Source: Acarospora socialis
Lineage: Eukaryota > Ascomycota > Lecanoromycetes > Acarosporales > Acarosporaceae
Assembly: GCA_025617375.2 (NCBI GenBank)
Contig: JAMYGW020000005.1
Span: 2,108,001 to 2,172,000, forward strand
Length of the DNA: 64,000 nucleotides
Direction of reading: 5' to 3'
The notes below the pieces were generated by a model. It made no database searches. It was not told where the DNA came from and was given only the letters and a program-made list of their open reading frames with translations. Both the position numbers and the translations under genes were made by a program. Positions within the stretch are counted from its first letter, which is position 1. Each line of letters opens with the position of its first letter. Positions 8,578-59,060 of this stretch are shown here, piece after piece.

Positions 8578-9240
8578 CTCCGACAAGATAGTCGAGAAGG
8601 CAGTAGGAGAAAGTTCAACAATTCTACAAAACACAATCGTTCAAGCACTGCGAGCAACAGCTCTTCAAACAGCTTCAAAGAAGGAAAACGGTTTTGGTAG
8701 TAAGTTCACCAGAACGTGGTTCGGACGATGTAGCCTAGGCGGCAGAGCCGCAACGAGGCAAAACGAGGCGTGCAAGGCTGCAGCATCCCCTGCTGGCCAG
8801 AACACCCGGTCGTTTGAGAAGCCAATCATCGTGATGGGGAATTGCACGAAACGAGACGTTTCTGCTACAGAATGGAAAAAGATGTTGCATAACCATGAAA
8901 TATTGGAGATTCAGTGCGGCATGTACAGTAGGTACCAGTGTTGATGGGGAGGGAAAGGGAGCTTTTTGTAAAGAATACAAATTGGTAGATATTCCAATCA
9001 CAGTTAAAGAACGGGATAGATAAAGGACAAGGTCGGCATTATGTTTGCAATAGATTGATGTTGTTGAATATTGAACGTCCACGACAAGCATCCATATCCT
9101 TGATTGATTGATTGATTGATTACTTCATAGGTGACCAAGGCTGCCTAGGCTGCCATACACCACATAACTACAAACAGACTAGCGCATACTTTCTTGCCCA
9201 CAAATCAAAAAGCCAAAGCCAAACTATGATTCAGATCCCA
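8578..9240. promoter_or_regulatory. upstream region of the zinc-finger/protease gene
   Basis: About 660 bp of GC-balanced DNA lies between the start codon of the zinc-finger/protease gene and the edge of the mutated repeat block. Several open frames cross it on both strands, but none looks like a protein or has splice support. It is expected to carry the promoter and leader of the minus-strand gene; no specific regulatory site was recognised. Confidence 0.4.
9100..9121. repeat. TTGA tetranucleotide microsatellite
   Basis: Five perfect TTGA units plus TT. It lies about 120 bp outside the mutated block, next to where the LINE 3' end should be, and could be unrelated slippage or a remnant of a LINE tail. 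Confidence 0.9.
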
Positions 9241-11798
9241 TTAATGCCCTGTAGCTCTCTATTTCTCAGTACTGATGTCTTGCTAGTTTTCTCTGTAAGT
9301 GTTCTAAGTTAATGTCTTTCTCAGATTGTCATTCTAGAGAATTATTGTTGCTATAAACAATTAATTGCTGTTTCTGTGATCTGAAAAATGTAACTATATG
9401 AATATATGAATCTTCTATTTCAGACTGTGTTGAGAATTCTCAGCATCTATGTTTAAATTTTCTGACATCTCTTTCATTGTCTGAAATTGTCTCAGATGAT
9501 TGTCTCAAAGCATAAGTATAATGACTGTTTTGATCAGTGCTGAGTTCTTAAAAATCTTCTTCACATCATGAATTCTTTCAAATAGATTCTTTCTTAAATT
9601 CTGAGTTCTTGAGCATTCTGTGAGTATATGATGCACTGTTTGAATGTCTTGATTGTAGAAGCATTGAGGAAATTCAGCTCTGTCTATGACATATAAATAG
9701 TGAGTTATGTTTATTTTCTCAATGCAAAGCTGTGTAATCAAGAAGCTGATTGAGCATCAAATGTCTGCATGCTTGTTCAGCATCTTGCAGTTAAGTTTCT
9801 TCTTCAAACTGAAAGTTGTTCTTTCAGAGATTTCATGCTTTTATTCACTGACTCATTTCTTAACTATTCATCTTCAAATGAACATCTTGCAAATGACTGT
9901 CAGACAGTACAGAATCTCTGAGAATGTGTATGAGTTTAAAACTGCAGTTTTTGTGATCTTGTCTGTCTTCTTGTTGTTAAATATCTCTATATGTATTGAT
10001 ATTCAGTGTATCTGTATTCATATGTTTTGTGCATGTAGAGCATTCACATTCTGAACTATTCAATTCAGTAAATACTGATCTGACTGTGTTTTGAGCTTTG
10101 CTGTTGTTCAAATGAATGTCTGATTGTCAATGTATATGTTAATGATTCAGATATTCTGATTCTTCTTCTTAATTTCTCAGATCATATTCATAATCATAAT
10201 CAAATTCTGTAGTTCTGCAGTATATATTGTAGAGATGTCTTTGAGTCTTATGTAGCACATATGATTTCTGTCTCTATCTAAAATCATTATTGCTGCATCT
10301 ACATATTTCTGTATTTCACTGTTGTCAGTATAGATATTCAAGACTTTTTAATCTTAACACAGAGAATTTAAATCATGAGTACACATCACTTTGTCTGCAT
10401 CAGTCACTATAAAGATTGCTGATTCTTTTCATCATGATGATGTAATATAAAGAACTTTTAACTTTAAATTCAGCTCTTTCTGCAGAATAAATTTCTGTAC
10501 AGAGTATTTAAGTTGCAGACACTTTAAAGAACTTTTTTATCTCAGTAACTTGATGTAAATTAATCTGAAGATTCACATCAGACTGTATATTAATATTGTC
10601 ATCATTTACAGTAATAAGTACTTCAGCATCTTCTTTAACTGTTGTTTCATCAGCAGAAGAAACAATTTCATATTCAGAATTGAGTCAGCTATAATGTGAA
10701 AGACATTTGTCACTATTGCATTTACTCATCACTGAATAACAGTGAGTTTCTGAAGTATCTTTTGCTGTTATATAATTGTATTATACTTACTACTGAGTGT
10801 ATATCAGACAGAGCAGCAGTATAGAATTTATGAAAGAATCACAGTGATATACAGTCTCTGTAAGTTGTTTAAATTAAAGTTTCAGATTGAGTCTGTGATT
10901 ACTGTTAAGTTTATTAAACTTGTAATTGTTTTTGTCTGTATATGTCTGAGATGAGTTTCAAAGTTTAATTATAAATCTAAAATAATCTTTAGAACTTAAC
11001 ACATCAGTGAGAATCTGATTGTCTGAGTTTTCAACTTCAGTTTAGCTGTCATGTTGTGTTTCTTTGATTGATTGATGAAGTGTATAAGTTCATATTTTGT
11101 GAAAACAAACACTGAAGCATACTTTCATACTTACAGCTCTGTGTTCTTGTGTATAATCTATAGTGTTTAACAGTTTGTTGCTGTTGTCTCTTCTGTAACT
11201 AAAAATTCAATATTGTTTATTTAATTTGCTGCTGAGACACACAGATCTGATTGAGTGTTTAAATTCAACATGTTAACATTGTAAAATAAATACAGAATGA
11301 AGAACAGTGACAAGTTCTGTGATATGTTTGTGTGTACTTTAAAGAGATCTGATTTGTACTTTAATAGTTTGATTGTTGAAATCTGTCTTTTAAGAAAGCT
11401 GTTTATTTATGTGACTATTTTCATTGAAAGTCTTCTCTTTCACAGATTATGAAGCAGTCTCTAATGTAACATATTGTTAAAGATTTTTAATACATTCAGC
11501 ATTAGTAGTGATGTCACTGATGTCACTAAATTTCAAACTCTTTGTATCTGCTTCAGTAGCATGTGTATGATATATTCTGTAAAGATTGTTTTTCTTTTAT
11601 TTAGAAGTGTTTTAGAGAGTAGATCATGAATCTCTGTCATGTAGTTGATTCTTTGTGTAATGACTAATTTTAGAGCTTTTTTCAGAATATTTAGTAAAGT
11701 CACTAATCTGTACATCTTTGCTTGCTGATAGTTGTTCTTGTTGAACTTTTGCAGTATTACTGTAATAAAATATTTGAAGACATTCAGATGTTTTCTTT
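9240..11798 (-). mobile_element. Tad1-like LINE, piece 1 (3' end: RT and C-terminal part of ORF2)
   Basis: Minus strand. Just inside the right end (11790-11533) is the reverse transcriptase block YRLVTLLNILKKAL, matching the YRPVALLNTLGKALE motif of fungal Tad1-type LINEs. At 9741-9505 is the C-terminal tail of ORF2 with a Cys/His cluster (FPQCFY...TVHHILTEC), typical of LINEs with RNase H-type tails. Stops and shifts occur throughout. The piece ends at Gypsy-1 (target duplication TCTTT); the sequence continues in frame at 17984. The left limit is where CC/CG-containing DNA resumes. Confidence 0.85.
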
Positions 11799-12150
11799 TG
11801 TTATAGTCAAGTCAGAATGAACTTAGAGCAGACTGATGTGTACATGTGAAAGATATATATTCAGAAAATGTTTAAACAGCAGTTACATGACATCTCAACA
11901 TGCTTGATGATGAGCTTGATGAGCAAGCTCAATGAGTTGCATAAGTGAGCTGCCTTAACAGACTCAACAATGAGATCAACAAGCAGACTCAGTATATAGT
12001 CACAGTCATTTTTCTTATGAAAAGAATCATGTTCAACTTAAGTAATCATCTAAGAGTTAAAGATCAGAACCATTTCAGACCAGTCATTATATCAATAAGC
12101 ACAAACTCTTAGTTCTACATATCTGAGAAATCTCAGGTTAGAATGTTACA
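11799..12150 (+). repeat. Gypsy-1 5' LTR
   Basis: 352 bp, TG...CA ends, matching 17627-17978 over its whole length. The U3 part is rich in short inverted repeats built on AGCTTGATGAGC-like words. Confidence 0.95.
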
Positions 12151-12181
12151 CTTTGAACACTCTTATGATATAATAAGTATG

Positions 12182-14090
12182 ATGTCTGACACACAGAAAA
12201 ATGTCTCAATCTTGTTCTTGAGACAGATTCAAGTGAACTCATCTTTATCATCTACTTCAGATAGAATGACAGCACAATCAGTGATGTCAACTCAGATAAT
12301 ATAACTATCTGTGAATGCATCAAAGATTCAGATATTCAATATCTTTGATGAAGAATGAGAAAAGCTGTGAGTCTTTGTGACTAAGCTTGATCTGTATATT
12401 GAATTCAATCAATTAAAGTTTCAAACTGATCAAGAGAAGACATTATTTGCAACAATCTATCTAGTGAATGCAGTCTTTAATTGAGTTAATCTCAAGCTAC
12501 ATGAGTTTTTAGAGAAGAATTACAACAAACACAATGCTGATGTGAAGTTCATGTTCAATGACTTCAGCAAGTTCAAAGAGAAACTTAAGAAAGTCTTCAA
12601 AGTAATTAATGAAGAAAGAGCAGTAGAGAGACAAGTTCACATCTTGTGACAGAGTGAATTGACAGCAATATACATCACAAAGTTTCAGCAACTAGCAGCA
12701 CTTATCAGATGAAATAATGAAGCACTCATTTATCAGTACTATTGTGAGTTAAAAAAGTTCATCAAAGACAAGATAGTCTGAGCAGAATAATCAGACAATC
12801 TTCAGAAAATGATTGATCTAAGTATCAATATCAATAGTTGTCAATAGAAATGACAGATGAAACAAAAAGAATATTAAATGTCATCTATGATAGAAGGTCA
12901 AGGAGAAAGCTTTTAACTGTGAATGAAGTGATATGTTTCACCAATAAAACATAGAAAAACAAACTCTATGAACCTCAATACAATCAAGAAGTGTCATCAG
13001 AAGTCATGAAAGACTAGACAAGTGAAGTATGAATGTTAGTCAGAGTGGTTCACTAAGTCTTAGATAACACTGCAAAACAAGATGTGAACATATTACAACT
13101 GCAAAAAACCTGAATACCTTGCTTGAGAATGCAACAGATCTTGAATGAAAAGAAAAAACATTGCAGTGACAGTCAAGAAAAATGTACACATAGTGCATGA
13201 CATTCTCAGCTGAACAGTCTGTTATGATGACATGTGCAGAGTACACATGAGTGCAAAAGATAAAGTCAGATAATATTCTCAGAAACTGCACAAAGAAGTG
13301 AAGAATGAATATGACACAATGAGTTAATCAATTTACAAGAAAGAATTAACTATTCTTATCAAGAAAAGAGTTCTTGATGCTGAGAAAGAAGATCATGTTT
13401 TTGAAGATGACATTGAAGAAACTGATGATCATGAATTTTAGATTGATGAATCTTGAATATTTCTTGACAGCAATACACTCATAAAAGAAAGTTTGAACAA
13501 TGTCAAGACAGAACTCTTGAAGAAATACTGAACAAAGATTAAGAGAGATTTAAGTGCTCAAAGAAAAGTGACATTAGTCAGCAGAAGAATACTGAAGAAA
13601 AAACAAGAAACTCAATATCAGAAAGCAGAGATATACAAAGAATTCAATGATTTAATGAGAAATGTACAAACAGTCATGAGAGAATCAATAGAAGAATCTC
13701 TTGTGTAAAAAATCAAGAGTCACAAGATTGAAATACACTTATCTGAAGAATATACCACACAGAATAAAGACAGATGAATCTTCAGCAGAGAATATATATT
13801 ATCTGAATTTCTACAAAGAGTAAGAGTCTTAGAGAGTCAGTTGCAGATGAAGTACAATCAGTATGAATTTTGACTACATTTAGAAAGATGCATTGAGCAG
13901 TACAGTCTAAAATATGTGAATCTCATGATCAAAAGAGAATCAAGATGATTTCAAGAACTTTGAAGATGAACTGAACAATCAAGTGAGTTAAAAAACAAAA
14001 AGCTTTCTCAACAAGACTAAAGAACAAGAAGCTAGCAGTGTTTCAAAAACAAGACAATGATCATCAGATATGAATCAAGATTATAATTAA
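12182..14090 (+). pseudogene. Gypsy-1 gag (degenerate)
   Basis: ATG at 12182, 31 bp after the 5' LTR, begins MSDTQKN, the same start as in Gypsy-2 (42816, minus) and Gypsy-3 (35013). The capsid-like part (FDEEWEKLWVFVTKL, then YLVNAVFNW) is readable with TGA taken as former Trp. A CCHC zinc knuckle lies at about 13091-13140, with its first Cys changed to Tyr and its His to Tyr. Many TGA and TAA stops follow. Gag would have packaged the element RNA in cytoplasmic particles. Confidence 0.85.
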
Positions 14091-14099
14091 TGAACATCA

Positions 14100-17085
14100 G
14101 ATTAACATATTGGTGAATTCTGAAGCAGACAGTAATATTATAAATTGAAAGACAGTTAACATGTTGAAATTAGTGACACAGTGAGCATGCTGTTCATTCA
14201 ACATATGAATGACAAATGAAGTCATTGAAAGAATCAATGAGAAAATCTGTGTGAAAGTCTCAATTCTTGAAAACTCACAAGAGATAATATTCAACATTAT
14301 GAAATTAATTGAATATGATGCAATGCTAGAGATGTCTTGATTGCATAAAAAGAATTTAAAGATTGATTGAGTCACAAAAGAAATATGTGCAGTCAAAGAC
14401 ACATACAAGATTTCTGAGCAATCAGAGATGAGCTTATCAGAATATAAGTTATGAGATCACAAAATACTGCTATTGAATGAGAAGCAATCTAAGTAAATGT
14501 CATTATACTCAATGAGCAAGAACCAACTCAAGAAAGTTAAAACTTATCTTGACAAAAATCTGAAGAGAGAATTCATAAGATTATTGAAGTCATCAGTAAG
14601 ATATTCAATTCTGTTCATATCAAAGAAGAATGACAAGAAATGACTATGTGTTGATTACAGACAACTCAACAAGATAACTCATCAAAATAATTATTTTCTA
14701 TCACTGATAAAAGAGTTGCAGAATTAATTAGAAAAGACTAAGTAATTTACAAGCTTAAATCTTAAGAACACATACTACTGAGTTAGAATGAAAGAAGATG
14801 AAAAATGAAAAATGACATTCTGAACAAGATATAAACATTATGAGTATACTGTTATGTCATTTAAGCTGAAAAATGTCTCAGTCATCTTTCAGAGATTGAT
14901 CAATGACATGTTGAGAAAATATCTCAATAATTTTGTGATCACATATCTCAATGATATTCTGATATACTCAGAAGATCTGAAAAAGCACTGAGAGCATGTG
15001 CACAAGATATTGACAAAGCTCAATGAGAGAGTCTTGTATGTGAAAAAGTCAAAAAGCAGGTTCAAAATCAAGAAAGTTAAATTTCTAAACTATGTGATTT
15101 GATCTGAACAAATTAAAAAGAATTTAAAGAAGACAGAAGCAGTCAGAAACTGATTAATATCAAAATGAATTAAGAAAGTACAAGTTTTTCTAGAATTAAC
15201 AAACTATTATTGAAAGTTTGTATCAAACTATGCAAGAATTGCAGAACTGCTGATGCATTTGACACACAAGAGTGAAAAATAACATTGAGATCAAGAACAG
15301 AAGAATGTGTTTCATGTATTAAAGAAAAGTTTTAGTGAAATGACACATCTGAGAATATCAAATTCAGTATGTGAAAAGACACTAAAAACTGATGCTTCAG
15401 ATTTTGCAGTAAAAGCATGTTTGTATTAAATTGAGAATGAATGACAGAGATTTATAACATATCAATTTAGAAAGTTATCAGAACTCAAGAAAAGATATGA
15501 GATTCATGATAAAAAACTTCTTACAATAGTGAAAGCACTACAAAATTGAAGATCTTATCTTACAGAAACAAACAAGTCAATTTAAATCTATATGAATCAC
15601 AAGAATCTGAGAAACTTTGCAATGACAAAGCAACTCAATCAATGACAGATTCATTGAACAGAGCAGTTAACAGACTATGAATTTCAGATTCATTACAAGA
15701 AAAATAATAAGAATAATGAAGTGAATGTCTTAAGCAGATGATCTGATCATGAAGATGTACAGATAATATATGCTGAAATTCTAAGTGAAGACAACAAAGA
15801 AATTCTCACAAAGAACTTAGCAGCAATGTACAAGGTAGAGCAAACTTTCTTGATGAATGAAGAACTCATTGAGATATGTCACTACAGCAGAGTCAGTGAA
15901 CATTTAAAAGTCAAGTACATCAAAGATCTAGTGCAGAGAAGACACAATGTTAATAATTTTAGAAATTGAATCATCAGAATGATCACTGTGTGCAATTTAT
16001 GTTGAAGAAACAAAATCAATTAAGATAAATGATATGACAAAGTAATGCAACTAGATGCATCAAATGCATCATGAAAGTCAATTATTATAAACTTCATCAT
16101 GAAGCTATCATCATCAAAGAATTCAGCATGAAAGATGAAATTCAATAGTATATTGATCATAGTGAACAGATTGACCAAGTACATAATGTTCATTTCATTC
16201 AAAGAAATCATGACAGCATCAGTATTGACATACATCATACTGAGAGAATTGATTAGCAATCATGAGTTATCAAAGAAGTTTATCACTGACAGAGACAAGC
16301 TGTTTACAAGCAAGTTTTGAAAAACACTCACAGCAGAACTCAAGATAAAACACAAAATGTTAACAGCATATCATTCACAGACAGATGAACAAAGCAAGTA
16401 AATGAATTAAACAGTAAAAATATGCTTAAGACACTATGTCAATAAGAGTTAAAATGACTGAATATGACTGTTGTCAACAGCACAGTTTGTGTACAACAAC
16501 ACAAGAAACAAAATCATGAAAGAGACATCTTTCTATGTGAACTATGACTACAACTCAAAGATATGATGAGATCTCAAAGAACATGAATTGCAGAGTCAAA
16601 AGACAATTTTGAACATCACACAGATGAGAAAACTGCATCAAGATCTGACAAAACAGATCAAATAGCAGACAGAATGAACAACAAAGACAAAATCATTTGA
16701 AGAAGAAGAGAAGATATATCTGAGAATGAACAACATATGAACAAAGAGAAAAAGCAAGAAGCTAAAGAACAAGAGCATAGAATCATTCAAGATCATATGA
16801 AACATCAAGAAGTTAAGCTATGAGCTAGACTTATTTAAGAAAATGAGAATACATTTGATATTTCATGCATTCATGCTACAGCACTGCAATCAGTTGATAT
16901 CACTTCAAATCACTGAAATGTCTGTTGAATTCAATGAAGAATATAAAGTCAAGAACATTTTAGAAAAGAGAATGATTAGTGAGAAAGTTCACTATCTTGT
17001 AAAATGAAAAGATTATGATATCTCAGAAAATATCTGAAAACTCAGAGAGAATCTCAAGAACTGTGTAAGAACACTTCAATGTTTT
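14100..17085 (+). pseudogene. Gypsy-1 pol: protease, RT, RNase H, integrase, chromodomain (degenerate)
   Basis: Domains in order: aspartic protease about 14105-14330 (NSEAD where DSGAD is usual); RT about 14500-15120, with the catalytic box reading TYLNDILIY (first Asp of YLDD lost) near 14940-14970; RNase H about 15370-15650 (KTDASDFAV); integrase zinc-binding part near 15870-16010; DDE core with FITDRDKLFTSKF at about 16280-16320; chromodomain about 16960-17060 (VHYLVKWKDYDISENIW). Trp positions in the chromodomain are TGA. Chromodomains of this kind bind methylated H3K9 and steer integration to heterochromatin; that is family knowledge, and it fits the nesting here. Confidence 0.9.
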
Positions 17086-17551
17086 GAGAAAGAAAGTTGA
17101 TATTAGTTCAGAAGAATGATGATATTGAGTCAACAAGTTGTGACATTGTTTGAGAATTCTCATTCTCAGTTTCATCATTATCACTATTAAGTTCAGCAGC
17201 AAAACAGTCAATCTTCTGTGAAGCACATCAGTTCATCTGATTCAGTGTTTTCTGAAGATGCACAACTTTTGAGAAAAGTGCAGCAAGCTCAGCATGCTTG
17301 ACTGTCAGTTCATTGTTTGCTTTACTTATTTTCTTTTGAAGCAAAAGATGAGTTCTATTGAGAGACTTTCACAATACATTGACACATGAATGATCATGAC
17401 AGATACACTTATTGCATTTTGATCAAGATTTCATTACAAAACAATTGATGCTGCAATGAACACAATAGTTACAAGAAAACAGAGCAGACACATCATCAAT
17501 TTGAATCTTCTTTGTGATTCTTAAATGATTTGAATTTTTAGAAAGCATCAT
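17085..17551 (-). pseudogene. Gypsy-1 antisense Cys-rich/coiled-coil ORF (degenerate)
   Basis: On the strand opposite gag-pol, between the chromodomain and the 3' LTR, starting at an ATGATG (17551). It begins MMLSKNSNHLRITKKIQI, then a Cys cluster (CNYCVHC, CFVM, CNKC) followed by a heptad-rich stretch (ISKANNELTVKHAELAALFS). Copies in Gypsy-2, -3 and -4 keep the same layout. The 3' end is uncertain. From memory, similar Cys-rich antisense frames accompany other ascomycete gypsy elements, but no function can be assigned. Confidence 0.7.
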
Positions 17552-17626
17552 TGCTGACAATAAACAATGTAAACACTCTCACTTATATAGACTCTAGAGA
17601 ACTAGTGCCTGAGAAGAAAAAAATAG

Positions 17627-17978
17627 TGTTATGATTAAGTCAGAATGAACTTAGAGCAGACTGATGTGTATATGTGAAAGATGTATATTCAGAAGATGTT
17701 TAGACAGCAGTTATATGATATCTCAACATGCTTGATGATGAGCTTGACAAGCAAGCTCAACAGATTGCATGAGTGAGCTGTCTTGATGAGCTTGACAGTG
17801 AGACTGATGAGCAGACTCAGTATATAGTCACAGTCATTTTTCTTATGAAAAGAATCATGTTCAACTTAAGTAATCATCTAAGAGTTAAAGATCAGAACCA
17901 TTTCAGACCAGCTGTTATATTAATAAGCACAAACTCTTAGTTCTACATACTCAAGAAATCTCAGATTAGAATGTTACA
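17627..17978 (+). repeat. Gypsy-1 3' LTR
   Basis: 352 bp, same length and ends as the 5' LTR; scattered C/T and G/A differences between the two fit independent mutation. Confidence 0.95.
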
Positions 17979-18769
17979 TCTTTCTTCAAGACATAAATTG
18001 TATAAAGATAGTAGTAGAGAGAGTAACTAAGATAAAACTAAATATAGTACTTTATTAAGTATTCTGTTCAAGTCAGAAGTCTTGTTTACAGATATTTGAA
18101 GAATTATGTTGCTGAGCTTCTGTTCTGTGATGAGTGACATAGATATGAGTTTTGAATACTCATAATTTGCAATATTGCTGAGATCTATCTTCAAGAAGAT
18201 TGAAAAGAAGATGATTTGCAGCAGTTTGATCTTGTCACTAAATTTTGTGATTGTGTGATCTTCTCACTTAAGTGCTGATGTGAAAGTCTGACTAACAGTG
18301 TTTCTGTTTCTAACTTACTTCATGAGTTTTTACAGATTTTGAGAATCTTTAATGATGACTTTCACTTGCACTCTATATGTCTGTTTCATTAAAGCTGTCA
18401 GCTTTTTTTTCTTCAAGTTGTAAATTTTAATGTAAACTTTTCAGATCTGAGTTGTCTGTATGTGCTGTTATCTTCTTTTGACTCTGTTCACTTCTTGTAT
18501 GATTTTCTTGATTTTTGATTCAAATTCTGATTTGAATCACTTGCATGAGTTAAATGTGAGTACTAACTCTTGAATTGCTGTCTGTAGAGCATCTGTGATG
18601 ATTTTCATTTGATGTTTCATGATGTTTAAATTGTGATCTTGAAGTGAATTCAGAAGTCTGACTTTTAAAATCTTAATTAGCATTTCTGCATTCAATCTGT
18701 TTCATTGTAGTCATCTTTGAAATATTGTTTCAGTTGCTTTTAGAAGCAAAGTTATTGTCATTAAATAGT
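17979..18769 (-). mobile_element. Tad1-like LINE, piece 2 (ORF2 between endonuclease and RT, start of RT)
   Basis: Minus strand. It reads through the linker typical of Tad1 LINEs (NLWKLMKWVRNRNT; TKFSDKIKLLQIIFF) into the first RT motif (NRILNKVLYLVL, LLSLLLSLYN), which is completed by piece 1 across the Gypsy-1 insertion. At the other end it joins piece 3 across Gypsy-5 (duplication ATAGT). Confidence 0.85.
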
Positions 18770-18963
18770 TGTGAGACTGATCTTGACAGTTACATGATAA
18801 TGAACTTTAAGAGTTGAGATACATAGATAGAATTGTTGCTAGTCTTTGCAAAAGAAAAAGTGTGCACTTTTATTTCTTTGCAAAAACTGACTTACTAAGC
18901 ATATTAGTTATGCAAGATCTTGCAAGAAAACTTTAGTTCTTCACAAATCAGAGTGAGCTTACA
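18770..18963 (-). repeat. Gypsy-5 3' LTR (left)
   Basis: 194 bp, matches 26702-26895 along its whole length. Confidence 0.93.
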
Positions 18964-26616: not shown

Positions 26617-26701
26617 AATTCTTTCTGTTCTTCATGAGAGTTGTTTTAATTTTAAAATCATTGTTGAATAACTACTTTATGATAAATCAGAGTGACAATA
26701 C

Positions 26702-26895
26702 TGTGAGATTAATCTTAACAGTTATGTGATAATGAACTTTAAGAGTTGAGATGCATAGATAAAATTGTTGTTAGTCTTTGCAAAAGAAAAAGTGTGCACT
26801 TTTATTTCTTTGTGAAGACTGACTTACTAAGCATATTAGTTATGCAAGATCTCACAAGAGAGTTCTAGCTCTTCACAAATCAAAGTGAGCTTACA
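26702..26895 (-). repeat. Gypsy-5 5' LTR (right)
   Basis: 194 bp; pair of 18770-18963. Confidence 0.93.
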
Positions 26896-37326: not shown

Positions 37327-37401
37327 CTATTCTTTTCTTCTCAGACACTAGTTCTCTAAAGTTTATATAAGTGAGAATGTTCACATCATTCACTATCAGC
37401 A

Positions 37402-37870: not shown

Positions 37871-37899
37871 ATATTAAAGTGTTCTCATACAGTTCTTGA

Positions 37900-40800: not shown

Positions 40801-41050
40801 TTTTTTGATTTATAATGTTACTGTCTGCTTCAGAATTCATCAATATGTTGATATGATATTCATTGATTATAATCTTGATTCATATTCAATGATCATTGTC
40901 TTGTCTTTGAGACATCACTAGCTTCTTATTCTCTAGTTTTGTTGAGAAAGCTTTTTGTTTTTTAACTCACTTAATTGTTCAGCTTGTCTTCAAAGTTCTT
41001 GAAATCACTTTGATTCTCTTTTGATCATAAGATTCACATACTTTAGACTG
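37900..41050 (-). pseudogene. Gypsy-2 pol (degenerate)
   Basis: Reading leftward: protease about 40860-40600; RT with intact TYLDDILIYS at 40129-39800; RNase H near 39560; integrase zinc-binding segment near 39000-39100 (CHYNRTDEHLEIKCTENLVQ); DDE core about 38900-38550; chromodomain about 38020-37900 (IKWKNYDISKNIW), with both Trp codons now TGA. Confidence 0.87.
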
Positions 41051-42816: not shown

Positions 42817-42847
42817 TGTACTTATTATATTGTAAGAATGTTCAAAG

Positions 42848-43198
42848 TGTAATATTCTAATCTAAGCTTTCTTAAATATGTAAAACTAAGAGTTTGTGCT
42901 TGTTAATATAATGACTGATCTGAAATGATTCTGATCTTTAATTTTTAAATAGTTACTTAAGTTGAACATGATTGTTTTCATAAGAAAAACAACTTTACTA
43001 TATAGTGAGTCTGCTTGCTGATCTTGTCATTAAGCTTGTTGAGATGACTCACTCATGCAATTCATCAAGCTTGCTCATCAAGCTCATCATTGAGCATGTC
43101 AAGATGTTACATAACTGCTGTCTAAATATCTTCTGAATATATGCTCTCTGTGTATATGTATCAGTTTGTTTTAAGTTTATTTTGACTTAATCATAACA
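42848..43198 (-). repeat. Gypsy-2 5' LTR (right)
   Basis: 351 bp; pair of 36976-37326. Confidence 0.93.
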
Positions 43199-43203
43199 CA
43201 GAT

Positions 43204-45267: not shown

Positions 45268-45486
45268 TGTTGAGAAGTGCAGTGTTCTAGCTGCTTTCAT
45301 AGTCTTAGTTGAGACTAATGTCAGAAATTACTCATTATTCATATAGTCTGTGTGACAGAGCATGTGAATAGTCAATCTTTACAATTTACATCAATCACTG
45401 TTAAATCAATGATGTATGTTTCACTAGATAGACAGTTAATCAGCAGTATAGTATAAGTATTCTTTTATCTTTCAATAAATTCAATA
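45268..45486 (+). repeat. Copia-B 5' LTR
   Basis: 219 bp, pair of 56691-56909. Confidence 0.93.
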
Positions 45487-45899
45487 AATTATGAGCTCAG
45501 ATTAGCAAGAATCTTTTTAGAGAAAGTGCATACTATTTTAATATCTTAACAGCTTGATACAGAGACTCAAAAATTAAGCAAAACAACACTCTCAGCAGCT
45601 TGATACAGAATCAAAACAAACACTCTTGATTGTCAATACAGAACTTAAAGATTGAGCAAAATGACATTCTTGACACTTGATATGAAACTTTAAGATTGAG
45701 TAAAATGAAATTTATTGACAACTTGATATGATGCTCAACAGTTAAGCAAATAAGCACACATACTTCTTCTTTCTCTTATTTACATTATCTTTTTTTGTAC
45801 ATCTTAATACTTTACTTTATTCATTTCTTATACTACATGTCAATCACTGTCAAAAGCTACATCATAAATTTCAACAACTCTTTCACAAAGCAACAATCT

Positions 45900-48220: not shown

Positions 48221-48570
48221 TGTTATAATCAAGTCAGAATGAACTTGAAGAAGACTGATGCATACATGTGAGAAGTATATATTCAGAAAATATTTAGACA
48301 GCAGTCACATGACATCTTAACATGCTTGATGATGAGCTTAATGAACAAGTTCAACAGATTGCATAAGTGAGCTGTCTTAATGAGCTCAATGATGAGATCA
48401 GCAAGTGAACTCACTATATAGTAGAATCATTTCTCTTATGAAAATGATCATATTTAACTTAAATAACTATTTAAAAACAAAGACCAGAACTGTTTCAGAG
48501 CAGCTGTTATATCAATAAGCACAAACTCTTAGTTCTACATATTCAAGAAAGCTTAAATTAGAATGTTACA
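48221..48570 (+). repeat. Gypsy-4 5' LTR
   Basis: 350 bp; pair of 54092-54442. Confidence 0.93.
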
Positions 48571-48601
48571 CTTTGAACACTCTTATGATATAACAAGTAT
48601 G

Positions 48602-50560
48602 ATGTTTGACACACAGAAGAATGTCTTAATCTTATTTTTGAAGTAAGTTCAGACAAACTCATCTCTATCATTTACTTCAGATAGAGTGATGACACAATTA
48701 ACAATGATGTCAGCTTAAGCAATACAACTATCTTCAAGTGCATCTAAGATACAGATATCAAATATCTTTGATGAAGAATGAAAAAAACTGTAAGTCTTTG
48801 TGATGAAGCTCAATCTATATATTGAATTCAATCAACTGAAGTTTCAGATTGATCAAGAGAAAATCTTGTTTGTAACAATCTATTTTGTGAACACAGTCTT
48901 TAATTGAGTTAATTTCAAGCTGCATGAGTTTCTGAAAAAAAAGTATGAAGAATGCAATGTAGATGTGAAGTCTATGTTTAATGACTATGCACAGTTTAAA
49001 AAAGAATTAAGAAAAGTCTTCAGAATAATTGACAAAGAAAGAGCAGTAAAGAGATGAGTTTACATCTTATGACAGAGTGAATCAGCAGCAATATACATCA
49101 CAGAGTTTCAGCAGTTAGCAATACTTATTAGATGAAATGACAAAGCACTTATTTATTAGTACTATTGTGAGTTGAGAAAGTTCATTAAAGACAAGATAGC
49201 TCAAGCAGAACAATCAGACAATCTTTAGAAAATGATTAATTTAAGTATTAATATCAACAGTTGTCAATGAAAGCAACAGATGAAACAAAAAAAATATTGA
49301 ATGTCATCTATGATAAAAGATCAAGAAGAAAGCTTCTGATTATGAATGAAGCAATATATTTTATTAATAAGACATAAAGAAATAAACTCTATAAATCTCA
49401 ATATAATTAAGAAACATTATCAGAAATCATGAAAGACTAGATGAACAGAGTATGAATGTCAGTCAGAGTGATTCACTAAGTCTTAGATGACACTGTGAAA
49501 TAAGATGTAAATGTGTTATAACTGTAAAAAACTCAGACATCTTGTCTGAGAGTGTAACAGATCTTAAATGAAAAGAAAAAATGTTGCAGTGATGATCAAA
49601 AAGAATACATGCATAGTACACAACACTCTCAGCTGAACAGTCTGTTACAATAATATGTGTAGAGTACATATGAGTGCAAAAGACAGAGTTGAATGATATT
49701 CTCAAAAATTATACAATAAAGACATCAGAAACAGACATGACATGATAAATTGATTAAACTACAAGAAAGAATTAGCTACTCTTGTGAAAGAACATATCAA
49801 GAAAGATATTCTTGATGTTGAGATCAAAGAAATTAATACTTAAGAAACTCAGATAAAAAAAAACTACAGTGATAATATTTGACAAGCACTGAATTTGAAT
49901 GCAGATCAGAAAGAAATTGATGAATATGAAGTTAATATAAGACTGAAGACAGTGTATCAGCACTCTGAGAATCAACATCAAGTATTAAAGAAAAAAAAGC
50001 TTCAATTCAAGAAGCAAAAGCTTGAGCAAGAGATGCAAGCTTGAAAATGAGAAGTGCAACACAAAAATGCAAAAGAACAAAGAATATATGATCAGCTAGA
50101 AGAGCTGATGACAGCTGTTAAAGACAAATGTTTCAACAGTGATGACATGATATTGTCAGAATTTTTTGTTTGAAAAATGAAGAGTCACAAGATTGAAATA
50201 TGCTTACTCAAAGAGTACATCACACAAAATAAAGACAGATAAATCTTCAGCAGAAAATATATATTATTTGAATTTTTGCAAAGAGTAAAAGTCTTTGAGA
50301 GTCAGTTGCAGATGAAGTACAATCAGTATGAATTTTAACTACACTCAAAAAGACACATGAAGCAGCACAGTCTAAAGTATGTGAATCTTATGATCAAAAG
50401 AGAATCAAAGTGATTTCAAGAACTTTGAAGACAAGCTGAACAATCAAGTGAGTTAAAAAACAAAAAGCTTTCTCAACAAAACTAGAGAATAAGAAGCTAG
50501 TGATGTCTCAAAGACAAGACAATGATCATTGAATATGAATCAAGATTATAATCAATGAAT
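48602..50560 (+). pseudogene. Gypsy-4 gag (degenerate; intact zinc knuckle)
   Basis: The initiator MSDTQKN is altered to MFDTQKN here. The CCHC zinc knuckle at 49513-49554 keeps all four ligands (CYNCKKLRHLVWEC), unlike the sister copies. Many stops elsewhere. Confidence 0.83.
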
Positions 50561-50564
50561 ATCA

Positions 50565-53560
50565 TATCAACATATTGATGAATTCTGAAGCAGACAGTAA
50601 CATTATAAATTAAAAGACAGTCAATATATTAGAATTAGAGACACAGTGAGTGCACTGTTCATTTAACATATGAATGATAAATGAAGTCATTGAAAGAATT
50701 GATGAAAAAATCTGTGTGAAAGTCTCAATTCTTGAAAACTCACAAGAAATAATGTTTAATGTTATGAAATCAATCAGATACAATGCAGTGCTAAAGATGC
50801 TTTAATTGTGCAGAAGAAATCTGAAGATTGATTGAGTTATGAAAGAAATATGTGTGATTGAAAACACATATAAGATTTTCAAACAATCAGAAATGAGCTT
50901 ATCAGAGCATAAGTCATGAAATCACAAAATACTGCTATTGAATGAAAAACAATCTAAGTGAATATCATTGTACTCAATGAGCAAGAATCAACTCAAGAAA
51001 GTTAAAGCTTATCTTGACAAGAATCTAAAGAAAGAATTTATAAAATCATCAAAATCACTGACAGAATACTCAATTCTGTTTGTATCAAAGAAGAATGACA
51101 AAAAGTAATTATGTGTTGACTACAGACAACTCAATGAGATAACTCATCAAGATAATTATCTTTTATCTTTGATAGAAGAGTTGCAAGATCAACTAAACAA
51201 GACTAAGTAATTCACAAGCTTAGATCTTAAGAACATCTACTATCAAGTTAGAATGAAAAAAGATAAAGAATGAAAAACAGTATTCTGAATGTGATATGAA
51301 CATTATGAATACACTGTTATGTCATTTAAATTAAAGAATGCATCAGTCATCTTTCAGAAATTAATCAATGATATATTAAGAGAATATCTCAATGATTTTG
51401 TGATTACATATCTAAATGATATTCTGATATACTCAAAAGATCTTGAGAAGTACTGCAGATACATGTGCAAAATATTAGCAAAGTTTAATGAGAAAGTCTT
51501 GTACATAAAGAAGTTGAAAAGCAGATTTGAAGTCAAAAAAGTTAAGTTTTTAGATTATGTGATTCAATCTGAACAAATTAAAAAGAATTCAAAAAAGACA
51601 GAAGCAGTTAGAAACTGATTAACATCAAAATGAATCAAGAAAGTGCAGATCTTTCTAGAATTGATGAACTATTATTGAAAGTTTGTATTAAGTTATGCAA
51701 GAATTGTGAAATCACTAATGCATTTGACACACAAAAGCAAAGAATAACACTGAGATCAAGAACAAAAGAATGTATTTCACATATTAAAGAAAAGTCTTAG
51801 CAGAACAGCACATCTGAGAATACTCAACTCAGCATGCAAGAAAACACTGAAAACTGATGCTTCAGATTTCACAGTAAAAGCATATTTATATTAGATTGAA
51901 GATAAACAACAAAAACTCATAACATATCAATTTAGAAAACTATCAGAACTCAAGAAAAAATATGAGATTCATGACAAGAAACTTCTTGCAATAGTGAAAG
52001 CACTACAAGACTGAAGATCTTATTTCACAAAAATGAACAAGTCAATTCAGATCTATACAGATCACAAGAATCTGAGAAACTTTGCAACAACAAAGCAACT
52101 CAATCAATGACAGATTTGTTGAGTGAAGCAGTTGACAGATTATGAATTTCAGATTCATTACAAGAAAAATAATGAGAATGATGAAGCAGATGTCTTGAGT
52201 AAATAATTTAATCATGAAAATATACAGACAATACACATCAAAATTTTAAGCAAAGACAACAGAGAAGTTCTCATGAAGAATTTAGCAGCAATGTACAAGA
52301 TGAAGTAAGCTTTCTTGATGAACAAAGAACTCATTAAAATGTGTCACTACAGCAAAGTTGATGAACAGCTAAAAATCAAGTGCACTGAGAATCTAGTGCA
52401 AAGAAGATGCAATATTAACAATTTTAGAAATTAAGTCATCAAAATGATTACTGTGTGTGACTCATGTCAAAGAAACAAGATCAGTTAAGATAAACAATAT
52501 AATGAAGTAATATAACTAAATGCACTGAATGCATCATGAAAGTCAGTTATCATGAACTTCATTACAAAACTATTACTGTCAAAGAACTCAGCATGAAAAG
52601 TAAGATTTAACAGTATATTGATCATAGTGAATAGATTAATTAAGTACACAATGTTTATTTCATTCAAAGAAACTGCAACAGCATCAATATTGACATATAT
52701 CATACTGCAGAAACTGATTAGCAATTATGAACTATTAAAGAAGTTTATCACTGATAGAGACAAGTTATTTATGAGCAAGTTTTGAAAAATGCTCATGACA
52801 GAACTCAAGATAAAACACAAAATGTTGATGACATATTATTCACAGACAAACAGACAGAGTAAATGAATGAATTAAACAGTAAAAACATACTTGAGACACT
52901 ATGTCAGTAAAAGTCAAGACAATTGAGTATGACTGTTATCAATGACACAGTTTGCATACAATAATGCAAGAAACAAAATCACAAAAAAAACATCTTTCTA
53001 TATGAACTATGACTACAATTCAGAGATATGATGAGATCTCAAAGAATATGAATCACAAAGTCAAAAAACAATTCTGAATATCACTCAGATGAAGAAACTA
53101 CATCAAGATTTAACAAAATGAATTAAACAGCAGACAGAATGAATAATAAAAACAAAATCATTTCAAGAAGAAAAAAAGATATATCTGAGAACAGACAACA
53201 TACAAATCAAAGAAAAAAGCAAGAAGCTGAGAAACAAAAGCATTGAATCATTTAAGATCATGTGAAACATCAAAGAATTAAGTTACAAGTTAAACTTACT
53301 TAAGAAGATGAGAATATATTCAATATTTTATGCATTCATGTTACAGCATTGTGATCAGTTCATATTACTTTAAATTATTAAAATATTTGTCAAACTCAAA
53401 GAAAAATATGAAGTTAAGAACATTTTAGAAAAGAAAATTATTAGTGAGAAAGTTCATTATCTCATAAAATGAAAAAATTATAACATCTCAGAAAATATCT
53501 GAGAACTCAAGAAGAATCTCAAGAACTGTGTAAGAACACTTCAATGTTTTGAGAAAAGAA
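50565..53560 (+). pseudogene. Gypsy-4 pol (degenerate)
   Basis: Protease is near 50570-50790. RT at 51319-51618 (open for 99 codons) has TYLNDILIYS. RNase H is near 51850. Integrase runs about 52330-53000, with FITDRDKLFMSKF at about 52740-52790. The chromodomain lies near 53430-53530, with Trp codons as TGA. Another Trp position before the RT core reads TAA, a rarer outcome in this block. Confidence 0.87.
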
Positions 53561-54016
53561 GTTGATGTTAGTTCAAAAGAATGATGATATTGAGTCAACA
53601 AATTACAATATTGATTGAGAATCTTCATTCTCAATCTCATCATTATCACTATCAAGTTCAGCAACAAGACAGTCAGTCTTCTGTGAAGCATGATGATTTA
53701 TTTGATTCAGTGTTTTCTAAAGATGTACAACTTTTGAGAAAAGTGCAGCAAGCTCAATGTGCTTGACTGTCAGTTCACTGTTTGCTTTACTTATTTTCTT
53801 TTGAAGCAAAAAATGAGTTCTATTAAGAAACTTTCACAATATATTGACACACAGATGATCATGATGAGTATACTTATTGTATTTTGATTGAGATTTCATT
53901 ACAAAACAATTGATGCTGCAACAAACACAATAGTCACAAGAAAACAGAGCATGCACATCACTGATCTGAATTTTCTTTGTAATTCTTAAACAATTTGAAT
54001 TTTTAGAAAGCATCAT
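53560..54016 (-). pseudogene. Gypsy-4 antisense Cys-rich/coiled-coil ORF
   Basis: ATGATG at 54016 begins MMLSKNSNCLRITKKIQI; first stretch open to 53834 with CDYCVCC, CFVM and a partly mutated second Cys cluster (KYNKYTHHDHLC). Same place and strand as in the sister elements. Confidence 0.68.
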
Positions 54017-54091
54017 TGCTGATGACAAACAATGTGAACATTCTCATTTATATAAACTCTAGAGTACTAGCACCTGAGAAGAAAAAAATAG

Positions 54092-54442
54092 TGTTATGAT
54101 CAAGTTGAAATGAACTTGAAGAAGATTGATGCATACATGTGAAGAGCATATATTCAGAAAATATTTAAACAGCAGTCATGTGACATCTCAACATGCTCAA
54201 TGATGAGCTTGACAAGCAAGCTTGATGAGTTGCATGAATAAGCTGTCTCAATAAGCTTGACAATGAGATCAGCAAGCAAACTCACTATATAGTAGAGTCA
54301 TTTCTCTTATGAAAACAATCATGTTCAACTTAAATAACTATCTAAGAGTTAAAGATCAGAACTATTTCAGATCAGTCATTATATTAATAAGCACAAACTC
54401 TTAGCTCTACATATCTGAGAAAGCTCAGGTTAAAATGTTACA
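54092..54442 (+). repeat. Gypsy-4 3' LTR
   Basis: 351 bp; pair of 48221-48570. Confidence 0.93.
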
Positions 54443-56690
54443 ATAAACTATACAGATAAAATCACAAAGCAGTATCTGCTTTGAGTTTCAGATCTTAAGT
54501 GAATCATTAAGAGTTATGCTGTAAAGTTTGCTGAGAATGAAAAGAAAAACAGTGTTGATCTTAAACTGCAAAGATAAATGCTGAACATTCTGTCTGAACA
54601 AAAGTCAGTTAAATAATTATAAAAGAATGCAGTCATCACAGATATCACAGTATTTACAACTCTGTTTATTGTTTCTGAGCAAACTCACAGATTCAGATTC
54701 ATGAGTTTAGACAATAAAAAAGAGTTTAAGTTAATTGCAAACAATCTTGACACATTTTCATCAGATATTCATATGATGAATAGATCAATCACAGTTAATT
54801 TAAACAGATTACAGACAAGTGAATAGAGTGAGATTAAGTAGTTTTTACATATTAAAGTTTCTGTCAGCAAAGCACTGAATATTTTAACTGAGAAAGTTAA
54901 GACATTCTTGTGTGTTGAGATTTCAAAAAGAAAATGAAATAGCAACAATAAAGACTTCAATAAGCTCATGATCAAGATATTATGAACTATGCTGACACTT
55001 ATAACATTCATCACAGATAATAAAAAAGACACTGAGAACATCAGATCTGATATTTTCACATTTATTATCTATGTTAAAGTAGTGAGAGACTCAGTCTGAA
55101 AAGAAATGTAAAAAAATGTTATTTATACAGAGTTAATGACTCTGACAGTCAACAGAACATAAAAAGAAATTGTGTCATCAAAGAATGCAAACATAATGAT
55201 CAGCAAATAAATGTTCAAACTTAAGTTGAACACTGATGAATTTCTGAACAAGTTTAAGACAAGAGTTATGATGAGAGATTTCTCACAAATGTATAACATT
55301 GATTATGAAAACATCTTTGCATCTACAGTCAAGTTCAATACTCTTTGAATCTTTCTTGTTATCATTGTTCTTAAAAATCTTGAATATCATCAAGTAAACA
55401 TCAACAACATCTTCACAAAATTCTTTCTTAAGAAGATCATTTACATAACAGCTTCTTCTGAAGTTCAAATTATATTTAACTGTGTACTGTGTATATTGCA
55501 TAGTCTTTATGATCTGAAGCAAACTGCATAAAATTAACATAAATAATGTGTCACTGATCTGTGCAAGTTAAACTTTCATTAAAGCAATATTAACTCATGT
55601 TTTCTCATCAACAGCATCAAAAGAATCATGCTGCTTCTCTATGTAAATAATATGATTGTAGTCTCAGTAAGTTTGATACACATTCTTTGATTTAAGAAAG
55701 TTCTTATGAAGATGTTCAAAGTTAAGAACTTGAAGAAGACACAGAAAATTCTTGATATATAAGTCACACATAACTGCAAGAGAAGAACTCTACATTTAAA
55801 TTAGACTCATTATGTAAATAAGATGTTGAAAAATCTTCATATGCAGTTTGATAAGCATAAGATCACAACAATCTTACTTAATGAATATGATGCTTTTCAT
55901 CTCATCAACTCAGCTGATCAAAGAATAGATTAAAGACAGTATCAACATGCAATTGAAAGTCTGATGTACACAATGATTCATATTTAATCAAACATCATCT
56001 TTACTCTAGATCAATTAAGTCAGTATTTTAATGATTTTGCAGAACATCATAAATATGTGTTTAAAAAACTGTTGCAATATGTGAGATTAATTATCAATCT
56101 TGACATTGTGTATGAACTCAGTGAGAGTCAAGTCATGCTTAAATACTTTGACTTCAATTATGCATCAGACAAACAAGATCAAAAGTCAATTCTAAAACAT
56201 ATGTATATACTTAAAGACAAATCAGTGTCATGAACAAGTCAAAAGCAAAAATCTGTTGTCATCTCAATTACAGAAACTGAATACATGATTATATCAATGT
56301 GTATAAAGACTGAAGTCTGACTTACACAAATGCTGCAAGACATAAATATGAACAAGTATCTTGAAGACAATTCATACTGTGTGAACATCAAGAAGAATGA
56401 AGCTCATCAAGTAGTCTCATTTCTTCAGCTTAAAAGAGACAATCAGACTGTCTTGACTCTGATTAAGAATGTACATGTGCATGAGTAATTAAAGCATATT
56501 AACATTGTTTATCATCATATTCATAATCTGCATAAGCAAAATCAGATTGATGTAAACTTTGTGTTCAGTCAAGACATAATAACTGATGAACTAATTAAGC
56601 TCTTATCTAAATGAATCTTTAAGTACTTTATTGAACAACTGAGACTTATTGTTAGTGAGAGTCAATAGATGCAGCATCATCAAGTGAAAG
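54443..56690 (+). pseudogene. Copia-B pol, second part (integrase end, RT, RNase H)
   Basis: Resumes the Copia frame after Gypsy-4. RT spans about 55240-55950, with LLLYVNNMIVVS at about 55636-55668. RNase H is near 56150-56210 (NYASDKQDQKSI). It matches Copia-A 30310-32510 base for base apart from C/T and G/A differences. Confidence 0.85.
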
Positions 56691-56909
56691 TATTGAGAAA
56701 TGCAGTGTTCTAGCTGCTTTCATAATCTTAGTTGAGACTAGCATCAAAAGTTGCTCATTATTCATATAGTTTGTGTGACAGAGTATGTGAATAATTAATC
56801 TTTACAATTCATGTTGATCACTGTCAAGTCAATGATGTATATTTCACTAGATAGACAGTTAATCAGCAGTATAGCACAAGTATTCTTTTATCTTTCAAAA
56901 GATTCAATA
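56691..56909 (+). repeat. Copia-B 3' LTR
   Basis: 219 bp; its first two bases read TA instead of TG, a G-to-A change. Confidence 0.9.
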
Positions 56910-57840
56910 GTGAACAAATTGATCAAATATATAATGTTCATTTCATTCAAAGAAACTGTGACAGCATCAGTACTGATGTACATCATACTGTGAAAATTAA
57001 TTAACAATTATAAACTATCAAAAGAATTTATCATCAACAGAGATAAGCTGTTTACAAGCAAGTTTTGAAAAACACTTACAGCAGAACTCAGAATAAAACA
57101 CAAAATATTGATAACATATTATTTACAGATAAACAGATAAAGCAAATGAATGAATCAGATGATAAAAACATACTTGAGACACTACATTAATAAGAGTTAA
57201 GATGACTAAATATGACTGTTATTGACAGCACAGTTTGCATACAACAACACTAAAAATAAGATCACAGAAAAGACATCTTTCTATGTAAATTATAATTACA
57301 ACTTAAAGATATAACAAGATTTCAGAAGACACAGATTAAGAAGTCAGAAAGTGATTTTAAATATTGTTTAGATGAAGAAACTGCATCAAGATTTAATGAA
57401 ATGAATTGAACAGCAGACAGAACAAATGACAAAGACAAAATTATTTGAAGAAGAAGAAAAAATATATTTAAAAATAAACAACATATGAATCAAAGAAAAA
57501 AGCAAGAAGCTGAAAAACAAGAACATTGAATCATTCAAGATCATATGAAACATCAAGAAAATAAGCTATGAGCTAAACTTACTCAAGAAAATGAGAATAC
57601 ACTCAGTATTTCATGCATTCATGTTACAGCACTGCAATCAGTTCATATTACTTTAAATCATTGAAACATCTGTTGAACTCAATGAAGAATATAAAGTTGA
57701 GAATATTTTAAAAAGAAGAATGATTAATGAGAAAGTTCATTATTTTGTAAAATGAAAAGATTACAATATCTCAGAAAATATCTGAGAACTCAAAGAAAAT
57801 TTCAAGAACTGTGTGAGAATGCTTCAATGTTTTAAAAAAA
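56910..57840 (+). pseudogene. Gypsy-3 pol, last part (integrase core end and chromodomain)
   Basis: Continues from 45267. FIINRDKLFTSKF replaces FITDRDKLFTSKF near 57027-57067 (the core Asp after Thr is lost). The chromodomain at about 57710-57800 reads VHYFVKWKDYNISENIW with Trp as TGA. Confidence 0.86.
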
Positions 57841-57849
57841 GAAGTTGAT

Positions 57850-58281
57850 ACTAGTTCAGAAGAATGACAATATTGAGTTCACAAATTATAATATTGTTTA
57901 AAAATCTTCATTCTCAATCTCATCATTATCACTATCAAGTTCAGCAGCAAGACAGTTGATCTTTTGTGAAGCACAGCAATTCATTTGATTCAATGTCTTT
58001 TGAAAATGCATCATCTTGACAGTAAGAACATCAAAAATCATATTTGCATCATTTATTTTCTTTTGAAGTGAAATACAAATTTTATTAAGAGACTTTCACA
58101 AAACTGCAACACACAGATGACTGCAACAAGTATATTTATTACATTTTGATCTTTCACTGATCATGACAAAGCAATTGAGACTGCAGACAGTATAAAACTC
58201 ACAAGAAAATGTGATGAGACTATCACTGAGTTGAATTTTCTTTGTAATTCTTAAATGATTGAAATTTTTAGAAAGCATCAT
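57850..58281 (-). pseudogene. Gypsy-3 antisense Cys-rich ORF (divergent copy)
   Basis: Start ATGATG at 58281, open to 58096: MMLSKNFNHLRITKKIQL, then CEFYTVC, CFVM and CNKYTCCSHLC. It shares the core layout but differs more in the Cys region than copies 1, 2 and 4 differ from each other, matching the divergent LTR of this element. Confidence 0.68.
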
Positions 58282-58356
58282 TGCTAATGATGAACAATGT
58301 GAATACTCTCACTTATATAGATTCTAGAGAACTAGTGTCTGAGAAGAAAAGAATAA

Positions 58357-58708
58357 TGTTATGATCAAGTCAGAATGAGCTAGAACAGACTGATGCATAC
58401 ACATGAAGAATGTATATTCAGAGAATGTTAAACAACAGTCATATAACAGCACAATGACCCAACAGTGAGCAGATGAGCTGAGAACTTGATTTCTTGACAT
58501 TGAGATGTCAAGACATCAAGGGTGCTCAACACTAGAGTGTTGAGCTCACACTATATAGTAGAGTTGTTTTTCTTATGAAAACAATTGTGTTCAACTTAAG
58601 TAACTATCTAAGAGTTAAAGATCAGAACTGTTTCAGACCAGCTGTTATATCAATAAGCATAAACTCTTAGCTCTACATACCTGAGAAAGCTCAGGTTAGG
58701 ATGTTACA
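58357..58708 (+). repeat. Gypsy-3 3' LTR (U3 variant with strong hairpin)
   Basis: 352 bp. Keeps several CC/GG dinucleotides lost in the 5' copy. Contains a perfect 10-bp-arm palindrome at 58524-58545 (GCTCAACACT, 2-nt spacer, AGTGTTGAGC) and, just upstream, TTGACAT/ATGTCAA arms. Confidence 0.93.
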
Positions 58709-59060
58709 GAGATCAGCTGCAATTTGAGCTGTTTTAAGCTGCAAAAGAATGCATTCTGCAAGAATCTGAACAGACTGAACAAAGAACTCAATGTAGTTTC
58801 ATTGTAAAGTCTTCTTGATCTTGTCATTCTTCACATTTTCTGTTGTGAAGGTCTGAAGTTGAATTGCTTTGTATTTGATTTGAGTGATGTGTTTCAACAA
58901 TGATGAGAATTTCACTTCTATAGTTGATCATGAGAATTCAGACATCATGATCTATATCAAAAGATAGAGAGTGATGAGCTGAGTTACAGGCTTGATTTTG
59001 GGCTTAATATGGGCTGTTTTGGTGGAGTTATTTCAAAAATTTGGTTCAGGCTGTTTGAGG
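58709..59060 (-). mobile_element. Tad1-like LINE, piece 5 (5' end and ORF1 start)
   Basis: Minus strand. ORF1 probably starts at ATGATG (58948), reading MMSEFS, then EVKFSSLLKHITQIKYKAI and ECILLQLKTAQIAADL up to the Gypsy-3 junction, and continues at 34629. The last roughly 100 bp outward would be the 5' UTR; the true end is uncertain. GG/CC are less depleted here than deeper in the block. Confidence 0.68.

Follow-up and report, generated by a model that had tools for sequence, protein, structure and literature searches.

Loss of CpG and CpC with sparing of CpA in a retroelement block of Acarospora socialis: probable repeat-directed C-to-T mutation with an inverted 3'-base preference

Introduction

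In Neurospora crassa, repeat-induced point mutation (RIP) changes C to T on both strands of repeats, leaves AT-rich blocks of dead retroelements and involves RID and DIM-2; its targets rank CpA > CpT > CpG > CpC (PMC5496416; here and below, published systems are described after excerpts of the papers cited). In this work we describe a block of about 50 kb in the ascomycete Acarospora socialis that shares these traits, with RID-like and DIM-2-like genes in the genome, but in which the targets rank CpG > CpC >> CpT, CpA, TA does not build up and the standard RIP indices are negative. The block lies in a window of 64,000 nucleotides, positions 2108001-2172000 of contig C5, in a 31.1-Mb genome of 38 contigs. 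To our knowledge, the determinant of RIP target preference is an open question. A natural preference that is nearly opposite to the classic one, alongside DIM-2-, RID- and DNMT5-like genes in the same genome, provides a comparative handle on target choice.

In Trichoderma reesei, which has RID1 and DIM-2, RIP also makes strong use of CpG; however, CpA is used about as much as CpG, and CpC comes last (PMC5496416, PMC10170752). Transposons likewise lose CpG in the RIP-like mutation of Microbotryum (at TpCpG) and of Aspergillus nidulans and Tuber (CpG along with CpA), but the excerpts of these reports give no CpC signature (PMC4352252, also PMC2621366). A survey of ten genomes describes CpA, CpT and CpG signatures, does not use the term CpC in the available main text, and gives its CpG-only basidiomycetes as lacking RID (PMC4352252). 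In Monilinia CpC is affected in the form of CpC-to-TpT double mutations; these are, however, secondary to classic CpA-to-TpA changes, and CpG becomes TpA (PMC8959702). In the hypermutation of Rhizoctonia solani AG8, CpC has the shortest mean inter-mutation distance of the four CpN (Table 2 of PMC4014442), but the changes are heterozygous single nucleotide polymorphisms, found in genes and repeats alike and described as CpG-biased. A preference that ranks CpG above CpC and spares CpA was not found in searches of an open-access library, outside which most subscription journals lie, and the "CpC" of PMC9073689, PMC10246852 and PMC8865532 abbreviates other terms in the portions available. Judged from sequence, such a preference would be new within repeat-directed C-to-T mutation.

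A block without CG

The last CG on the left lies at window position 9183 and the first on the right at 59129. No CG is present in between, against 1057 expected from base composition (the source of all expected dinucleotide counts). In the same interval CC occurs 42 times and GG 25 times, with 1015 and 1100 expected, so that 67 CC/GG are left of an expected 2115: 40 at the edges (9197-9248 and 58458-59124), 20 in a retroelement designated copy A (11953-17908) and seven elsewhere. A preliminary description, made by a model from the sequence, had CG as nearly absent and CC/GG as rare over some 50 kb; the actual loss is stronger than this claim.

Between 9240 and 59060, at a GC content of 29%, the observed/expected (o/e) ratio is 0.00 for CG, 0.02 for CC (also 0.02 for CC/GG), 1.55 for CA, 1.26 for CT and 0.61 for TA. 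The left flank (GC 51%) has CG 0.87, CC 0.94, CA 1.15 and TA 0.67, and the right flank (GC 50%) CG 0.76, CC 1.06, CA 1.13 and TA 0.79. Relative to the flanks, CA/TG are thus raised in the block, TA is low and CC/GG are close to nil. The hallmark of classic CpA-type RIP, depletion of CA/TG with enrichment of TA, was not found, nor were CC/GG at the level expected from composition.

Published cut-offs for RIP are TpA/ApT above 0.89 and (CpA+TpG)/(ApC+GpT) below 1.03 (PMC6180176). The block scores 0.68 and 1.58, which means no RIP by these cut-offs. Two standard indices read it as unmutated despite total CpG loss, and surveys based on such indices would therefore miss genomes of this kind.

There is practically no chance that these figures come from errors of sequencing or assembly, or from AT-rich DNA of the ordinary kind, and both were ruled out. 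The flanks are normal; the equally AT-rich start of contig C15 (first 10 kb; GC 23-38%) lacks the signature, keeping CC (o/e 0.87-1.32) and much CG (0.29-1.03); and the choice between TG and CA at the same CG sites varies from copy to copy.

The target rule in a before-and-after pair

The relative that we aligned to copy A, a gypsy-family element on contig C14 (L026), was picked up via its integrase domain and has near-normal o/e ratios for CG (0.79) and CC (1.04). Its closest match, on contig C12 (L035), is 82% identical, and the next matches are 77-79% identical. The two belong to the same subfamily and form a natural before-and-after pair, one nearly unmutated and one saturated. Their alignment spans 2590 columns with one gap and contains 474 differences, all of them transitions; no transversion was detected. 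Read from L026 to L035, 457 differences are C-to-T or G-to-A and 17 run in reverse. Because 13 of these 17 belong to TG/CA swaps, L026 may itself be lightly CpG-mutated.

When C-to-T changes were scored per strand by the 3' base, CG was altered in 116 of 212 cases and CC in 251 of 306, against 49 of 373 for CA and 41 of 328 for CT. Every one of the 106 CG sites was altered in L035, yielding 66 TG, 30 CA and 10 TA. All 98 CCA sites were altered as well (87 TCA, eight TTA, three CTG and no CTA), and of 97 CCT sites 81 became TCT, 12 TTT and one CTT, with three unchanged. The mutated base is therefore a C whose 3' neighbour is C or G. CCC (57 sites) gave CTC in 24 cases and TTC in 18, and CCG (54 sites) gave 21 CTG, 19 TCA, six TTG and eight TTA. 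These counts bear out the CpG and CpC preference that had been proposed, as well as the proposed route from TGG to TGA through the first C of CCA. The claim that CA and TG are spared needs qualification: they are enriched in the block, but CA and CT each suffered a loss of around 13% in L035, about 3% of the CC rate in the hand-set model described below.

According to the excerpt of a published rule, RIP creates the stop codons TAA or TAG, not TGA (PMC3828140). Here the rule is reversed, as 11 of the 12 stops created between L026 and L035 are TGA and one is TAA.

Nested retroelements in the block

The block is made up mostly of nested retroelement copies. Self-comparison resolved gypsy-type copies A, B, C and D, element X in two copies and a further retroelement of about 8.1 kb, arranged as follows (strand is given where one was assigned; LTR, long terminal repeat):

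9184..59128: block without any CG and almost without CC/GG, GC 29% (dinucleotide counts)
9250..11798: left part, diverged and low-copy, with partial matches elsewhere at 66-86% and no CG (genome search)
11799..17983, + strand: gypsy-type LTR copy A, LTRs at about 11799-12152 and 17627-17979 (self-comparison; aligns to L026)
18770..26896, - strand: second retroelement family, about 8.1 kb, long matches elsewhere at 80-86% (genome search)
23488-24489, - strand: reverse transcriptase and RNase H of the 8.1-kb retroelement (domain matches)
27285..32764: element X copy 1 (self-comparison; class of X left unassigned)
34617..36975, + strand: gypsy copy D segment 1, with 5' LTR (self-comparison)
36976..43198, - strand: gypsy copy B, inserted in D (self-comparison)
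43199..45267, + strand: gypsy copy D segment 2 (self-comparison)
45268..48220: element X copy 2 part 1, inserted in D (self-comparison)
48221..54442, + strand: gypsy copy C, inserted in X copy 2 (self-comparison; 87% identity to B)
54443..56909: element X copy 2 part 2 (self-comparison)
56907..58708, + strand: gypsy copy D last segment, with 3' LTR (self-comparison)
58709..59128: right edge, CG-free with some CC/GG (58774-59066 matches one other place, on contig C2, at 77%)

Copy A also has a protease-like match (13768-14496) whose E value, 0.0018, falls under Pfam's cut-off. When 5 kb of copy C were searched against the genome, at least 39 matching stretches were found, counting the query, from the 29 candidates scored out of 424; for the 8.1-kb element there were at least 46, again counting the query, from 26 scored out of 96. 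Most of the block is multi-copy and its flanks are normal, apart from about 1.5 kb in the left part for which no second copy was detected; 32765-34616 lay outside the copy comparison.

Differences between copies are almost exclusively transitions. The LTR pair of an element is taken to be identical at insertion, and in four elements these pairs now differ by 201 transitions and two transversions over 1406 columns. Between copies B and C there are 792 transitions and 16 transversions (6199 columns), and element X gives 750 and 13 over two aligned stretches (5415 columns). It is a feature of RIP that C:G to T:A transitions in repeats greatly outnumber all other changes, and this excess supports the RIP-like process that the preliminary description had suggested.

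Order of loss in other copies and loci

Fifteen gypsy-family copies, other than copy D and the matches in L013, L019 and L028, were compared at the columns of L026; columns with a gap or transversion in any copy, or with a changed neighbour, were dropped. At CG columns, nine strongly mutated copies have no CG, 320 TG, 425 CA and 91 TA, and six less mutated copies have no CG, 221 TG, 311 CA and 13 TA. CC before A or T is mutated in 264 of 270 cases in the former and 127 of 180 in the latter. The corresponding figures are 296 of 1620 and 76 of 1080 for CA, and 298 of 1512 and 80 of 1008 for CT, CA and CT columns having been kept only if at least two less mutated copies retain C, which biases the less mutated figures low. 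In the less mutated copies the 5' base also matters: TCCA is mutated in 97 of 111 cases and TCCT in 130 of 139, against 69 of 123 for ACCA and 62 of 107 for ACCT, with GCCA (33 of 40) and GCCT (35 of 45) in between. CG is lost first and CC next, TCC sooner than ACC; the loss of CA and CT is slow and comes last.

The preliminary description had Trp codons reading mostly TGA and rarely TAA. This holds, copy D aside, for the eight in-frame Trp codons of two L026 frames: copy A reads TGA at all eight, and L035, B and C at seven each.

A wider sample consisted of 19 loci chosen by place (L005-L023, mainly contig starts), divided into one-kb bins, of which 83 had GC below 40%. With cut-offs of o/e <=0.10 for CG and <=0.25 for CC, 72 of the 83 are CG-depleted and 11 are not; 62 of the 72 are also CC-depleted. 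Ten bins are depleted in CG with CC above its cut-off and none shows the reverse. CG is therefore lost before CC here too.

Accumulation of hits

A single saturating episode with independent hits on the two strands would turn nearly every CG site into TA. In fact, TA makes up 2.4% of these sites in the six less mutated copies (13 of 545) and 9% in L035 (10 of 106). We simulated mutation from L026 one hit at a time, re-reading the context after each hit, with hand-set, unfitted rates (CG 4, CC 1, CA 0.03, CT 0.03). The means were 13.5 TA at the 106 CG sites, 17.1 CTC, 21.4 TTC, 18.8 CTG, 22.7 TCA and 462 differences. TA in this model arises by later CA-to-TA change, and the observed 10 is lower. 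A one-shot simulation gave 106 TA, 0.2 CTC and 603 differences, far from observation. Hence, the sequential model comes close and one-shot mutation does not: the outcome pattern, with mostly one strand changed per CpG and CCC halting at CTC, records single hits and not one burst.

Equal rounds with independent strands were also modelled. In the saturated case TA falls from 50% after 20 rounds to 15% after 400, and in the partial case from 14.5% to 3.5%; each of these values, from 20 to 400 rounds, exceeds the observed share. This excess suggests either around a hundred or more small rounds, or that the second strand of a changed CpG is spared.

CG hits are not clearly clustered by strand along the 15 copies (z from -1.0 to 2.1). 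They lean towards the element's antisense strand (736 CA, 541 TG), and the lean differs among copies (p 0.007). The 5' base does not account for it, as CG sites of L035 whose two strands share a 5' class still lean 34 to 14. An APOBEC-like cytidine deaminase with element DNA as its substrate could be considered in view of this lean and of C-to-T change with a dinucleotide rule. Such enzymes, however, read the base 5' of C, while the deciding base here is 3', and both strands are mutated throughout each copy; we regard this possibility as very remote. A search with the APOBEC profile PF08210 gave no match, but was uninformative since the controls gave none either.

Passive decay would require that CpG and CpC in heterochromatin be methylated during vegetative growth, and that 5-methylcytosine deaminate spontaneously over evolutionary time. 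Mostly single-strand change per CG, the absence of clear strand clustering and gradual accumulation all fit rare independent events, and DIM-2-like and DNMT5-like genes are present. The rate is the difficulty. The 2590 columns contain no transversion, whereas the model implies about 4.5 hits per CC site; the targeted rate would then be at least some thousands of times that of transversions, which speaks against decay of methylated cytosine because spontaneous deamination gives a far lower rate. We thus consider passive decay improbable.

DNA methyltransferase genes

Candidates for the homologues that the preliminary description had pointed to are present: DIM-2-like, RID-like and DNMT5-like genes were found, tentatively so named after domains and motifs. 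The DIM-2-like gene is an open frame of 1158 aa with DNA_methylase and DUF7893 matches and a BAH match just under the cut-off; its best match in the PDB is 9bap, deposited as DNA (cytosine-5-)-methyltransferase (E 4.7e-200). The DNMT5-like gene has DNA_methylase and SNF2 matches, and weak RING matches under the cut-off. Its best PDB match (E 6.5e-207) is 7r76, which is deposited as "DNA repair protein Rad8" and which we take to be Cryptococcus Dnmt5. The RID-like gene (L006), whose frame is broken once by an apparent intron, has a DNA_methylase match and an SPPCQ motif that we assume to be RID-like. The match falls into two stretches, between which profile positions 182-253 are not covered; Amselem et al. 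(PMC4352252) report that part of PF00145, not specified in the excerpt, is missing in RID. A recent review attributes a CpT preference to DIM-2 and, in the excerpt, reports that no RID activity was detected in vitro (PMC13297926).

The same enzyme set could act at another time, as a DIM-2-linked mitotic mutator of the kind proposed for Zymoseptoria tritici, but specific for CpG and CpC. There, C-to-T change in repeats is tied to a DNA methyltransferase, and functional dim2 raises it in vegetative growth; the mutations are, however, at CA, not CG (PMC8016269). The DIM-2-like gene of A. socialis has a long open frame, and many low-dose rounds would be no less compatible with mitotic divisions than with sexual cycles. 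Mitotic and premeiotic action are not separable by the present data, and we view the mitotic alternative as possible, though doubtful.

A probable explanation

By their defining features, the data fit neither classic CpA-type RIP nor CpG-only mutation, CC/GG standing at 0.02 in the block and no CCA surviving in L035; they describe repeat-directed C-to-T mutation with an inverted 3'-base preference. The probable explanation is a RIP-like genome-defence process that changes C to T in repeats with a 3'-base preference nearly opposite to that of classic RIP. C is hit fastest before G, then before C, and only rarely before A or T, with 5'-T favoured and 5'-A disfavoured at CC. Saturation is nearly complete, mostly one strand is changed per CG, and the outcomes fit hits that come one after another, the context being re-read each time. 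Since the products, TG and CA, are seldom hit again, mutation stops there and no TA builds up. A candidate actor is one of the fungal DNA methyltransferases, of RID or DIM-2 type, and dosing might involve many low-dose rounds or a built-in sparing of the second strand. A more specific version is conceivable, although we hold it unlikely: a distinct mutator of C before a strong base (with 5'-T over 5'-A at CC), working on one strand per CpG, re-reading context and halting at TG/CA, possibly an inverted RID/DIM-2 lineage or a second enzyme beside RIP.

Several observations weigh against the RIP-like process and can be summarized as follows:

(i). The candidate enzyme is tied to the pattern by gene content only.

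(ii). The simulation uses hand-set rather than fitted rates, and misses both the strand lean of L035 (66 TG and 30 CA observed, 45 and 47 simulated) and its excess of CTC over TTC (24 and 18 observed, 17 and 21 simulated).

(iii). Textbook RIP mutates both partners of a duplicated pair. Here L035 is saturated and its sister L026 is at most lightly mutated.

(iv). A copia-type pair, L027/L036, was tried as a second mutated/unmutated pair and rejected, both sides being unmutated; it serves as a control. At about 82% identity it shows 147 transitions and 75 transversions over 1256 columns, with no loss of CG or CC. This identity may lie below a homology threshold under which copies escape.

(v). 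Of the 2.5 kb at 9250-11798, about 1.5 kb had no second copy detected in the genome search, where absence of a match does not prove rarity, and yet CG is zero. Either the partners were lost or mutation spread from neighbouring DNA.

(vi). By the classic RIP indices, four of the 83 AT-rich bins would count as RIP-mutated; all four lie in the initial 4 kb of contigs C1 and C9.

Other observations

The starts of contigs C1 (L010, 1-4000) and C9 (L018, 1-1000) are AT-rich with normal CC and a weaker loss of CG. Contig C15, of 247 kb, whose first 10 kb (L024) lack the signature, may be mitochondrial or foreign. A 27-kb contig, C30 (L025), has a GC content of 68% and an integrase frame, and looks like bacterial contamination.

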